Assembly (NCBI GenBank): GCA_020061125.1
Contig: JAGUYV010000472.1
Span: 1-9,856 of the forward strand
Direction: 5' to 3'
Length of the DNA: 9,856 nt
From: a bacterium
GTDB lineage: Bacteria; UBP15; UBA6099; DSWB01
Positions 2,451 through 7,226 of the stretch are shown piece after piece (position 1 is the first letter of the stretch; every line of letters begins with the position of its first letter). Made by a program: the position numbers and the translations under genes. The notes under the pieces are model-generated. The model was not told where the DNA came from. It ran no database searches and saw only the letters and a program-made list of their open reading frames with translations.

Positions 2451-3158
2451 ATGAGGCGATATGCGAAGACGGCCGCAAGGCTTTTTGCCGCCGCGGCCCT
2501 GCTGGCGGCCCTGTCCGCACCCGCGTTTGCGCAAACATGCCGCGAACCCCTTTCCGAAGCCCAGCTCAAGGCGCTTGTGGAAAAAAACATGTGCACGCCG
2601 CTCGTGGGCGATGAGCAGCCCACCACATGCGGCTGTTTCACCAAGCGGTTCCCCGTGAGCTGCTCCAGCGTGAACGCCGACTGCGTGGGTGTGGAAGGCG
2701 TGGACTGGAACCGCCCGCTCATGGCCGGCAAGGACGACAAGGCCGAAACCATCCGTTTCTCAAGCATCAAGGCGTCCCGCGATGTCGTCACCAAGAAATC
2801 CCTGTTCCCAAGCGATCCCCGCACCAGCATCAAGCCCGTGGATGTAAACCCCGCCACCTTCGGTTTCGGCACGGACAAGCCCGTGTGGTGGAAGGAAGTT
2901 TACTATGTATATTGCGAGCCGAACTGGACCAATCCCGGCTCTTACGCGCAGCGCATCAACAACACGGTCGAGGGCAAGGACAACTGGATCCGAGGAGAAA
3001 CCGGCCGCGAGATGATCGTGTACGAGCAGCGCCTCGGCTATTACATTTACATTGACTCCACAACCCAGCACGAGGTCAATGAAGTGGAATGGTCGGACAA
3101 GGACGAAAAGTGGCGCCGCCGCCGTTCGCCCTCGGTCAATTTCATGGAAAACCAATGA
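2451..3158 (+). CDS. Exported Cys- and aromatic-rich protein of unknown function
   Basis: This 235-residue protein has a clear Sec signal peptide: a basic start (MRRYAKTAAR), a hydrophobic core at about 11-23, and a probable cleavage site after AFA at residue 27. The next residues are QTC; the sequence before the cysteine (FAQT) is not a lipobox, so a soluble periplasmic or secreted protein is more likely than a lipoprotein. The mature part has seven cysteines (30, 48, 60, 62, 71, 78, 155). Six of them cluster in the first 50 mature residues with a C60-x-C62 pair, suggesting a small disulfide-rich head. The region 145-200 is aromatic-rich (VWWKEVYYVYC, then NWTNPGSY and GYYIYI), followed by a charged tail. 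I recognise no family. The gene leads a two-gene unit: its TGA overlaps the ATG of the next gene. It has a strong promoter and ribosome binding site, so it is very likely expressed. Confidence 0.88.
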   Translation: MRRYAKTAARLFAAAALLAALSAPAFAQTCREPLSEAQLKALVEKNMCTPLVGDEQPTTCGCFTKRFPVSCSSVNADCVGVEGVDWNRPLMAGKDDKAETIRFSSIKASRDVVTKKSLFPSDPRTSIKPVDVNPATFGFGTDKPVWWKEVYYVYCEPNWTNPGSYAQRINNTVEGKDNWIRGETGREMIVYEQRLGYYIYIDSTTQHEVNEVEWSDKDEKWRRRRSPSVNFMENQ

Positions 3159-4078
3159 TTGCAGCTTTGCGCTTGCTCAAGCAGGCTCTCATTTCGTGCG
3201 CGGTTCTTGCGCTTGTCGTGGCTTCGCTGCGCCCGGCCCGCGCGCAGGACGCCGCGGGCACGGGACATCTGAAATCCAAGATCAATGCGGAGTTTTCTTT
3301 CCCGGCCCAGGACTGGTCGTTTCACAATCCCGGCTCGGACTATTTTTCCGATTTCAAAGACATGAGAATGAACCTGTACGCGTCCAGCGCCGGGGGCTGC
3401 TCCATAGACATGTTCGCGATGCTCGACGGCGAACGCCTGGGGTTCATCGGCACATACATGGTCTCGCTGCAGGATTTTTTCGACATGCGCGGCGCGGAAA
3501 CCGATGAGCAGTACGAGGTGTGGCGCGGAGACCGCGGCAAACGCGTGGTGGGCAAACTCCTGGTGCAGGGGCCTGCGGACAAGACCGGGGCCATGCACAG
3601 CCGGAATGCGGGCACGGCCCCGTACCGCAATGTCATTTACATGATCCTCAACAACATGAACCTTATGCGTCTGGCGTTTTCCGCGCCGGTGAAAGACTGG
3701 AGCAACCCGGAGTGCACGGCCAGGATAGATCGCGTTGTGAACAGTTTCCTGCTCAAAGGCGAACCCGATGCGCGCGAGGAGCGTGTGCTCACGGGCATGG
3801 CCAGCCGCATCACCGCGGACCGCTCAAGCCAGACGCCCGGCCCAGCGGTGATTGACAACGGGCAATCCGGCGCGAGTGCGGGACACGATACGCCTCCGGC
3901 GGCCGCTTCCGGCTCGTCCGAAACCGCAAGCCAGATCAAAGCCCTGCACGACAAGATTGACGCACTCACCGTGCGCCTGTCCGTGCTTGAATCCGGCCAG
4001 GAAAAGCTGCTCAAAAAGATTGACGAACTCACCGGGCAACTGAAAACCCAATGCGCTCCGCAGAGCGCGGACCAATAG
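3155..4078 (+). CDS. Exported protein with C-terminal coiled coil, unknown function
   Basis: I place the start at 3155, where ATGA overlaps the previous stop. This gives 307 residues beginning with a signal peptide (MIAALRLLKQALIS, hydrophobic core to about 25, ARA|QDA cleavage near 30). A longer in-frame start at 3089 would bury this signal, so I reject it. Residues 40-200 form a compact alpha/beta-looking domain with phrases such as INAEFSFPAQDWSFHNPG, GERLGFIGTYMVSLQDFF and LMRLAFSAPVKDW, followed by IDRVVNSFLL. This layout recalls the PsbP/DcrB-like fold, but that is only a guess. C82 and C187 could pair. Residues 223-256 are a Pro/Ala/Ser/Gly-rich linker. About 257-298 is a heptad-patterned coiled coil (IKALHDKIDALTVRLSVLES and on), ending with a lone C300. 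Translational coupling to the upstream gene suggests that the two proteins act together outside the inner membrane. Confidence 0.87.
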   Translation: MIAALRLLKQALISCAVLALVVASLRPARAQDAAGTGHLKSKINAEFSFPAQDWSFHNPGSDYFSDFKDMRMNLYASSAGGCSIDMFAMLDGERLGFIGTYMVSLQDFFDMRGAETDEQYEVWRGDRGKRVVGKLLVQGPADKTGAMHSRNAGTAPYRNVIYMILNNMNLMRLAFSAPVKDWSNPECTARIDRVVNSFLLKGEPDAREERVLTGMASRITADRSSQTPGPAVIDNGQSGASAGHDTPPAAASGSSETASQIKALHDKIDALTVRLSVLESGQEKLLKKIDELTGQLKTQCAPQSADQ

Positions 4079-4141: not shown

Positions 4142-7030
4142 TTATTGCGTGATGCGGCGAATGGTGGACAGGTAACGGTCGGACATGGACAGGTAAAAGG
4201 CGAGGCCGTGTTTGAAGTTCTTGCCGATCAGCCCGTCAATGAACAGGCGGCTGATTTCCTTCTGCCGGGTGAGCACGATGTGCGAGCGCTTGAAGATCTC
4301 GCGCTCCTCCGGGTCCATGTCGCGCAGAATTGCGAGAAGCGCCGTGCGGGACCGGGGCTGGTACATCCAGAAGTACATCAGGTCCAGGGCGTTGATGATC
4401 ATGATTTGCTCCAGGTCGCGCGCCTCGTGCCGGACCGAACTCAACAGCTTTTTCGGGGATTCGAGTTTCTCGAGCGCGCTGGTTTCCGGGAACAGCAGTT
4501 CCAGTCGCGCATAGGCGCTGAATACCTGTCCGATTTTGGCATGATAATCGGACAGGCGCTGCGCGACATTGATGCGGCGATCCGCTGCGCCCTCGATCAT
4601 GCCCGCCACGCAGTCGCTGGCGAATTTCGAGATAATGGCCGCCCATTTCTGGAGCATATCGTCCACGGCCGGCGTGCCGGCTAAAACCAGGAATCCGCCG
4701 AACGCACTGTTGAACGCGATGGCCAGGGGGATGGACAGAATGCTGCGGAAGAAGTTGCCGATGATGGCGGCGCGCGGCAGGCCCCGCAGAGTGTTGTGCG
4801 TGGAGATGTACAGCCCGTTGATAAGCGCCATGATCGCATACAGGGCCACGGGGTTGGTCGCCGTGGTGACGCCCATGCCGCGATCCAGAAGCACGGTTTT
4901 GACCAGGTAATCCAGCAGGGGAACCGAAAATCCGGTGTAGAGCAGGGAGTCGGCCACGCGCTCCCAGCTCACATAATCCTTCCATTTCAGAAGAGAGTAT
5001 TTGTGGAACCCGCGTCCCGCGATCACGGACTGAATCACATTGCGCACGCCGGTGATGCCGAACCAGATGAACGCGCCGCAGTAGGCCAGAAGCCACCAGT
5101 CCTTGGTGAGGGCGAATGCGGCAAAGGCCGGGAGGAAGCCGATGAGTACCTTAAGCTGGTTTTTCAGCCCGGTGTTGAGGTATGTCCAGGACTTGCGGGC
5201 GGGGCGCTTTTCCGCGTTTGCGGGCGCGCCGCCGTCCGTGCTCTCACGCATGCCGCCCAGAGTCACGATGTTGCCCTTGTGCCTGTCCACGGTGGGGTTG
5301 TAGTTCCTCTGCCAGTCCACCTTGATCTCGTGGGACAGGGACTGCATTCCCGGCAGGCGGCCGAGCATGGCGGCGGCCGGCCCGAGTGTCGGGCGCGGGA
5401 CCCATGTGACACGGCGGTATGCGGCGATGTTCACGGGGATTTTTTTGTAAAAGGAATTCCCCGGATTTTTGATTTCGCGCTGCGCGCGCGGGGGCAGGGT
5501 GTGCGTGATGGCGAAGCCCATGCCATAGGTGTTCTCCGCGCGGCCCGCGGAGTCCGAACCGATGCGGGATTTGAGAGGCGCTCTGCGGTACATGGTTTTC
5601 AAAGTATCCATGTCCCGGAGAATCGCGCGCAGGCGCTCCGTGCGTTCCGGCGGCGCGCCGCTTTCCTCCTGCCCGCGAATCAGCTTCATGATGAAGTTTT
5701 TCAGGCCGACCACATTGCCCTTATTCAGAATCTGGCGCAGTTCGTTGATCTCCAGGCTGTGCAGGGGCTGCCCGGAGGCCATGTCCTTGAGGTTGAAGAT
5801 CTCCAGCCCCGTTATGGCGCCGCGGCACTCGTAGAGCAATTCCAGGGCGTCGGCGGTGTCGAGGCCGCTCAAGTTCAGAATGAAACGGCTGCGGCAGGGC
5901 AGGCGGCTCAAGCGGTCAATCAACTGGAGCGGGGTCAGTGAAAGCAGGAAAGGCGTGTCTCCGGCCGGTGCGCCGTGCGGGCGTGAGTCGTCCGGCGCCA
6001 GGCATTCTTTTTCCAGATCCTTCTGGGAGATTGGCAACGGCGCGCCCGCCGCAGCCGCGGCCTCGGCCAGACCCAGGTGCAGGAACTCGGCAAGGTGCAG
6101 GGCCGAAGCCTGGCCCGCGCCCACAAAGGCCCGGAACGCGCGCTCGTCCGCGGCAGGCGGCTCGAACCCGAGTTTGTCTTTGAGCGCAAACCGGCGTCGC
6201 GTGTTGTATTCGTTCAGCAGATCCAGCACGCGCGCTTCCTGAAAACGCGACACCTCGCGCCCGAGGCGCAGAACCTCTTGAACCGCGTCCTCGGACAGAA
6301 AATTCAGAAATTCATCCGAGGAGCCGATGTCGGAGGGAGTCCAGATGATCTCGGCGAAGCGATCGTGGAACCGCGCCGGGAATTCCAGTCCGATGCGCAC
6401 GCTGATGCCCATGATGTCCGCGGCTTCGAGCAGCTCGTCCGCGGCTTCGGGCGTGATGTGGTTGTAGTGAATGACCGTGAGCTTGCGGATGCCCTTGATC
6501 CAGGCGTCCATGATGAGGTGGGACGGGGTTTTGCGACCCTTGGTGTTGGCGTCGTGAACATGGTGGTCGAAAGTGACCTGGTTCCATTCCTCGGGCATTT
6601 CGAGCAGGTGATAGCGGCGCAGCAGGGCGCGGATCACGGCGGGACGCCCCGTTGTTGCGGAGCGGAAATCATGGGCCAGCTCGAGTTGCAGCCGGTCGTC
6701 GCCGCGCGCGCGCAGCAGGTGCTTCATGACCTCGACCAGCACGCGGGCGGCGTTCACGCGCATCGCGCCCTGGGTGCCGTTCAGCACTTCATCCCGCAGG
6801 GAGCGCAGAGCGTTGAGCCGATCCGCGGCCGCGCCCGCGTCTATGGTGTCCAGCAGGCTGCTGGCCGCATGCGCGATGCGCAGGTCCTGGGACGCCGCCA
6901 GTTCCTTGATGCCCCGGGGGTGAAGGTGCGGATTCAGCAGCTTCTTGAAGCTCTTCCGCCCCTTGTCGCGCCCAATGACATCATTGACGATTTTGAGAAG
7001 GTCGTGATCCTGGGGATCAAAAAAAAACAT
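4142..7030 (-). CDS. Large protein: PHP-like metallophosphoesterase domain fused to a polytopic membrane domain
   Basis: I choose the ATG at 7028-7030 (MFFFDPQDHDLL, 962 residues); it follows GGGAGGG on the same strand. A longer frame back to 7132 adds an Arg/Gly-rich stretch unlike protein. Residues 1-145 look alpha-helical. From about 150 the pattern follows the PHP fold: D155-H-H-V-H159 (HxH motif), LTVIHYNH (184-191) in place of the usual ITDH strand, VRIGLEF with E216, then after a long insert GAITGLEIFN (E410) and IGSDSAGRA with D493. PHP enzymes use such His/Asp/Glu residues to hold metals and hydrolyse phosphoesters. The final His of the usual GSDxH motif is Ala495 here, so activity is uncertain. 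Residues 620-790 hold about five membrane segments (near 624-641, 646-662, 693-711, 727-744 and 755-786), followed by a helical cytoplasmic-looking tail to 962. The gene stands alone and converges on the exported pair. I know no named family for the whole architecture. Confidence 0.88.
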   Translation of the reverse strand: MFFFDPQDHDLLKIVNDVIGRDKGRKSFKKLLNPHLHPRGIKELAASQDLRIAHAASSLLDTIDAGAAADRLNALRSLRDEVLNGTQGAMRVNAARVLVEVMKHLLRARGDDRLQLELAHDFRSATTGRPAVIRALLRRYHLLEMPEEWNQVTFDHHVHDANTKGRKTPSHLIMDAWIKGIRKLTVIHYNHITPEAADELLEAADIMGISVRIGLEFPARFHDRFAEIIWTPSDIGSSDEFLNFLSEDAVQEVLRLGREVSRFQEARVLDLLNEYNTRRRFALKDKLGFEPPAADERAFRAFVGAGQASALHLAEFLHLGLAEAAAAAGAPLPISQKDLEKECLAPDDSRPHGAPAGDTPFLLSLTPLQLIDRLSRLPCRSRFILNLSGLDTADALELLYECRGAITGLEIFNLKDMASGQPLHSLEINELRQILNKGNVVGLKNFIMKLIRGQEESGAPPERTERLRAILRDMDTLKTMYRRAPLKSRIGSDSAGRAENTYGMGFAITHTLPPRAQREIKNPGNSFYKKIPVNIAAYRRVTWVPRPTLGPAAAMLGRLPGMQSLSHEIKVDWQRNYNPTVDRHKGNIVTLGGMRESTDGGAPANAEKRPARKSWTYLNTGLKNQLKVLIGFLPAFAAFALTKDWWLLAYCGAFIWFGITGVRNVIQSVIAGRGFHKYSLLKWKDYVSWERVADSLLYTGFSVPLLDYLVKTVLLDRGMGVTTATNPVALYAIMALINGLYISTHNTLRGLPRAAIIGNFFRSILSIPLAIAFNSAFGGFLVLAGTPAVDDMLQKWAAIISKFASDCVAGMIEGAADRRINVAQRLSDYHAKIGQVFSAYARLELLFPETSALEKLESPKKLLSSVRHEARDLEQIMIINALDLMYFWMYQPRSRTALLAILRDMDPEEREIFKRSHIVLTRQKEISRLFIDGLIGKNFKHGLAFYLSMSDRYLSTIRRITQ

Positions 7031-7047: not shown

Positions 7048-7226
7048 GCCGGTGTCCGGGCGCTCCGCGATAGCGCGGGCCGCGGGCCGGGCAACGATCC
7101 GCGCCCCGGCGCCGGTTCGCGAATTGAAACATATTCTAAACCATATCCTAACGAAACTCTAACAATAATGCCCGGCCCTCCAACACCTTAATTCACGGAT
7201 ATCCAACACCGCCCCGTGGGCCTTGA

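Follow-up and report, generated by a model that had tools for sequence, protein, structure and literature searches.

A predicted PHP barrel depleted of metal ligands and fused to a multi-pass membrane domain in an uncharacterised bacterial protein family

Background

The closest described relatives of the protein analysed here are the PHP phosphoesterases of the RNase AM/YciV/TrpH type, represented by the structures 7ug9, 9etk, 2yb1 (Cv1693) and 3e0f (BAD_1165). In RNase AM, M-alpha is bound by H13, E72 and D255, M-beta by E72, H83 and H198, and M-gamma by D20, H45 and H257, and activity is abolished by the D20A, E72A and D255/H257A substitutions (PMC9410882). In the PHP domain of the E. coli DNA polymerase III alpha subunit the metal ligands are lost, and a structural role has been proposed for it (PMC3666897).

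The family described in this work resembles the RNase AM/TrpH enzymes in its PHP barrel (Z 16-18), in the HxH motif and the Glu of GxE, in the position of an insertion domain, and in carrying the IExxN/GVEV and GSD motifs in unchanged order. Those enzymes, however, are soluble, about 285 residues long and contain three metals, while in this family other residues stand in place of the M-gamma and M-beta ligands, and the chain is extended by a helical N-terminus of 150 residues and a membrane and helical C-terminus of 380 residues. With DNA polymerase III alpha (2hnh, Z 11.9) the family has in common a ligand-depleted PHP fold inside a larger protein; that subunit, however, belongs to a soluble polymerase without a membrane domain, and is structurally less similar to the family than RNase AM.

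Results

Within the window, i.e. the whole stretch of 9,856 nucleotides that was analysed, the gene occupies 4142..7030 on the minus strand. Its reading frame opens with an ATG at 7030, closes with a stop codon at 4142-4144 and translates into 962 residues, in which the ORF, full-length homologues and an AF2 model delineate a helical N-terminus, a PHP barrel, a six-helix membrane domain and a helical tail. Starting from an alternative in-frame ATG at 7132, the product would count 996 residues, the added 34 having neither conservation nor a counterpart in relatives. A sequence-only reading of this DNA had proposed the fusion of a PHP region to a multi-pass membrane domain in one chain, and this is borne out by the ORF, the model, hydropathy and homologues. 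The same reading could attach the architecture to no named family; indeed, the 962-residue protein has no match in Pfam, NCBIfam, PADLOC, PHROGs or among PDB sequences. A pseudogene or an antisense artefact was ruled out by full-length conservation across hundreds of genomes, and the idea of a defence, phage or plasmid gene was discarded after PADLOC, PHROGs and plasmids had yielded no hit.

The N-terminal helical domain (residues 1-150; 6581..7030, minus strand) was defined by secondary structure in the model and by conservation in 120 sequences, all of which share G40, A53, L75, N93, R96, K103, F122, G128, E144 and E147. It is followed by the PHP barrel, at residues 151-579 (5294..6580, minus strand), with an insertion domain at about 238-375, as delimited by Foldseek, VIA-align and hhalign. 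In the AF2 model of the full protein, built from 56 sequences (mean pLDDT 79.9, pTM 0.79), the best Foldseek matches are 3o0f/3e0f (E 4.1e-6), RNase AM 9etk and Cv1693 2yb1. VIA-align of model residues from about 151 to 579 gave Z scores of 17.8 (3e0f), 17.0 (2yb1) and 16.1 (9etk) over 251-262 residues; PHP structures continue from 17.8 down to 8, the first unrelated ones being found at 6.3 or below. Compared with PHP structures (Z 8-18), the modelled domain is a distorted TIM-like PHP barrel. At the sequence level, the family profile was compared by hhalign to 16 bona fide TrpH/RNase AM proteins from relatives of genome G029 and aligned over residues 154-317, approximately, with E 7.9e-6 and a probability of 84%, pairing HVHDANTKGRKTP with HTHSTASDGTLTP, and RIGLE with PGCELS. 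The PHP fold anticipated by the sequence-only reading is thus real, as judged on the model, and nearest to the RNase AM/TrpH-type enzymes. The Pfam PHP model PF02811, which is a criterion of detection and not of structure, matches neither the window protein nor eight relatives; it does detect other PHP genes of these genomes, passing over the family member. The genome of the window also carries, elsewhere, ordinary PHP proteins of about 300 residues, so that a canonical activity need not come from the 962-residue protein.

The long insert at about 240-380, listed by the sequence-only reading as a part of the protein, is present, but is probably no novelty: position and a weak profile alignment suggest that the helical segment 238-375 is the insertion domain of the RNase AM/TrpH-type subfamily, carried by those proteins at the same place. 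Within it, Q307-x-S309-x-x-H312 stands opposite the GRPH motif of RNase AM-type proteins, in a region where the alignment is weak.

The motifs from which a PHP domain had been recognised, HxH at 157-159, E216 in GLEF, E410 in GLEIFN and D493 in GSDSA, are all found at these residues. H157-V-H159-D160 (6551..6562, minus strand, as all the following) is the equivalent of the PHP HxH motif, H13/H15 in RNase AM, and K164-G165-R166-K167 (6530..6541) places a Lys at the position of the M-gamma Asp, D20, both by alignment and hhalign. E216 (6383..6385), conserved in 102 of 109 proteins, is equivalent to E72, the ligand bridging M-alpha and M-beta. E410-I-F-N413 (5792..5803) corresponds to the GVEVYY of TrpH proteins by motif and motif order, and, within G491-S-D493-S-A495 (5546..5560), D493 was matched to D255 through motif and fold, without the help of the profile alignment. 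Since hhalign gave no significant alignment in the second half of the barrel, equivalents of H198, D255 and H257 were assigned by fold and motif order only, and are the weakest link of the mapping, which was based on 109 aligned proteins and later on 120 sequences, 111 of them forming the main group.

In PHP proteins M-alpha is also bound by the second His of HxH; the M-alpha equivalents in the window protein are hence H157, H159, E216 and D493. Among the 109 aligned proteins, H157 is found in 108, H159 in 103, E216 in 102, D493 in 99 and E410 in all; with this conservation and the 484 stretches that encode relatives, the motifs are no chance occurrence. The four M-alpha residues occur together in 96 of 120 relatives; on a maximum-likelihood tree, a quick one with long branches, their distribution needs seven changes, six of which are forced by supported branches. 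Throughout one subclade E216 is replaced by Ser. Proteins with altered M-alpha residues are still full length and conserved.

The other two sites are gone family-wide. At the position of D20, K164 is found in 108 of 111 main-group members; across the family the residue is K, E, L or T, never D, the distant group having E or T and lacking K164 in all its members. The H45 position is occupied by N190 in the window protein and by Asn in most relatives, the H257 position by A495, with A, T, S, V or N, never His, across the family. For M-beta, H83 is replaced by W230 in the window protein, as in 109 of the 111 main-group members (W, Y, F or L overall), and H198 by N386/L387 in the main group, an equivalent of H198 being kept in a few distant members only. 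None of the 120 relatives has a complete M-gamma or a complete M-beta site.

Two subsets show how the set varies. Some f26 genomes carry two paralogues, one kind with H159 changed to Tyr and D493 to Ser or Asn (L102, L104, L113, L116, L117, L118), the other keeping the four M-alpha residues (L103, L105, L114). A distant subfamily of 935-1020 residues (L101, L122, L226, L227, L231-L235) keeps an N-H/R-P motif, resembling the PHP 'HP' motif, yet has mostly lost D493, so that ligands are lost in different combinations.

Residues unchanged in 120 of 120 sequences are D155, D160, G165, R166, K167, D175, A176, K179 and G180, along with E410, N413, N436 and the GMG at 503-505. Judging by motif positions, D155, D160, G165-R166-K167, E410 and N413 should line the pocket of the barrel. 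E410, listed by the sequence-only reading among the PHP motif residues, is invariant; in RNase AM it is not a metal ligand.

Six transmembrane helices are predicted at residues 620-812 (4595..5173, minus strand), from hydropathy, charge, a separate AF2 model and conservation. The multi-pass character suggested by the sequence-only reading is retained, the number of about five segments at 620-790 is not: hydropathy and the model indicate about six. The separate model, of residues 613-962 from 79 sequences (pTM 0.80), shows the six helices and the helical tail, the sixth membrane helix continuing into a long one. The predicted topology is N-in/C-in and fits both the family-averaged hydropathy and the positive-inside charges, the mean number of Lys/Arg per loop in the family being 3.2, 2.7, 1.0 and 5.2 on the cytoplasmic side and 0.7, 0.03 and 0.03 on the periplasmic one. 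The C-terminal helical tail (residues 813-962; 4145..4594, minus strand), expected from the sequence and found in the AF2 model and by conservation, follows the sixth helix, is predicted to be cytoplasmic and includes the invariant E813, G814 and D883. Of the 47 residues unchanged in all 120 sequences, 21 fall from residue 613 onward; those in the membrane domain include T660, R663, N738, Y741, H745, N746, R749, R762, K802 and S805, to be considered together with E813.

No Pfam family consistently matched the membrane domain, nor was a fold recognised for it by VIA-align (best Z 6.4) or Foldseek (E 0.6), which does not by itself prove a new fold. SpecificRecomb (PF10136), whose members too are large bacterial proteins with helical and multi-pass membrane regions, was considered because of a superficially similar AAxxGN motif; profile comparison lent kinship no support (hhalign probability below 1%, no significant profile match).

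One scan of GTDB representatives found relatives encoded in 484 genome stretches. The best 80 of the 484 match over essentially their whole length, at 46-53% identity, and the majority of them are named Desulfobacterota/Syntrophales or 'Deltaproteobacteria'. The family is common in sulfate-reducing and syntrophic bacteria, and is without an entry in protein-family databases; a published description was not found in the open-access literature on PHP with Desulfobacterota, Desulfovibrio or membrane. Its occurrence in whole genomes is patchy: it is carried by 4 of 60 relatives, by 3 of 7 genomes of the window's own small phylum, by 32 of 297 in the phylum of genome G029 and, using the C-terminal profile alone as query, by 9 of 386 in a wide sample. 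In the genomes searched the membrane domain always lies within an ORF of about 940-1230 residues, save for fragments apparently cut by contig ends; the fusion is therefore constant in the genomes sampled. A survey of homologues, as the sequence-only reading had suggested, thus found the fusion constant and E410 invariant, with the M-alpha set conserved in most relatives but not in all.

In the window the gene is accompanied by those for TypA/BipA, a GT2 glycosyltransferase and two secreted-looking proteins that belong to no family; inspection of the sequence adds an iron-type ABC transporter. None of these genes recurs beside relatives. The ORFs at 2451-3158 and 3089-4078, both on the plus strand, overlap; each has a signal-like sequence at its N-terminus, neither is significantly matched by a Pfam or NCBIfam family, and the latter ends in a coiled coil. 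A conserved operon partner was sought and not found: gene clusters are shared by 5 of about 80 loci at most, and Pfam tallies assign at most 6 of 135 nearest neighbours to any one family. A gene for a glycerophosphodiester phosphodiesterase (GDPD) lies directly downstream at four loci (L008, L011, L018, L020), all in one Syntrophales-type clade, and in its sister group (L013, L019, L048) a convergent pair of binding-protein-dependent ABC permeases is found, possibly of the Ugp (glycerol-3-phosphate) type. These neighbours hint, weakly, at glycerophosphate or phospholipid metabolism.

Discussion

Having lost most metal-binding residues and being fused to a membrane domain, the barrel probably serves for binding or regulation rather than as a normal phosphatase. 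We give an even chance to the more specific reading that this is an uncharacterised inner-membrane family, in which an RNase AM/TrpH-type PHP barrel, placed in the large cytoplasmic half, would have been repurposed, after the loss of two of three metal sites, as an anion-binding or regulatory module for the membrane domain. The third site, H157, H159, E216 and D493, is retained in most, not all, relatives; the barrel would bind an anionic ligand, phosphorylated or otherwise, possibly together with a single metal ion, and would not carry out canonical three-metal hydrolysis. Binding would control or feed the six-helix domain, where R663, N738, H745, N746, R749, R762, K802, S805 and E813 resemble a functional site close to the inner leaflet. 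The M-gamma and M-beta sites being gone and M-alpha repeatedly lost, three-metal phosphoester hydrolysis is unlikely, and phosphoesterase activity, assumed by default in the sequence-only reading, is not supported as a starting point; of the two roles it offered, a phosphoesterase or a sensor derived from one, the sensor fits better. Against a repurposed module stand the non-conserved gene neighbourhood, the assignment of the H198 and D255 equivalents by fold and motif, and the persistence of M-alpha in about 80% of sequences, which exceeds the requirements of a pure scaffold and leaves room for one-metal catalysis.

Such catalysis would make the protein an active membrane-tethered phosphoesterase, one-metal or rewired, with a putative catalytic metal at H157, H159, E216 and D493, and with K164, R166 and K167 holding the phosphate in place of the other metals. 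The joint persistence of the four residues in 96 of 120 sequences argues for it, as do the Lys found exactly at the former M-gamma ligand in 108 of 111 main-group members and the unchanged R166/K167. We regard it as unlikely nonetheless: the equivalent of E72, essential in RNase AM (PMC9410882), is Ser in a whole subclade, one paralogue group has Tyr for H159 and Ser or Asn for D493, and the distant group is mostly devoid of D493 and wholly of K164, yet the proteins concerned are all conserved and full length. The opposite extreme, a dead barrel serving purely as a scaffold between the N-terminal helical and membrane domains, as proposed for polymerase III alpha (PMC3666897), has this precedent, the loss of most ligands and the constant domain order in its favour; we consider it a little less probable still, as the unchanged polar residues D155, D160, R166, K167, D175, K179, E410, N413 and N436 exceed the needs of a scaffold. 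Chemistry might, finally, reside in the membrane domain, as a putative enzyme or transporter for, e.g., a glycerophospholipid head group or polyprenyl phosphate, the PHP barrel presenting or sensing the substrate. This overlaps with the repurposed module, from which it differs in the site of chemistry, and is suggested by the invariant R663, H745, N746, R749, R762, K802, S805 and E813 and by the GDPD (4 loci) or possible Ugp-type permease genes (3 loci) adjoining the family in one Syntrophales-type clade. This neighbourhood, however, is held in that clade only and could be chance inheritance, and no fold is recognised for the domain; we rate this alternative as rather improbable.

Taking the repurposed module further, the family may tentatively be regarded as a novel kind of membrane receptor or membrane-embedded enzyme, whose PHP barrel, stripped of two of its three metal sites, would have become the cytoplasmic ligand-binding part of a six-helix module without a recognised fold, and as an overlooked part of the Desulfobacterota envelope, possibly tied to phospholipid or glycerophosphate metabolism; we think it somewhat less probable than its contrary. 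A protein of about 1000 residues, present in hundreds of genomes of anaerobes (sulfate reducers, syntrophs and relatives), has been missed by Pfam, NCBIfam and PDB sequence searches. It would bring PHP domains into an integral-membrane setting, would be the second case, after polymerase III, of a PHP barrel kept despite the loss of its catalytic metals, and would point to an unstudied conserved envelope function. In one Desulfobacteraceae MAG (L024), two copies of the family, with ORFs of about 1111 and 1125 residues, are found tail to tail.
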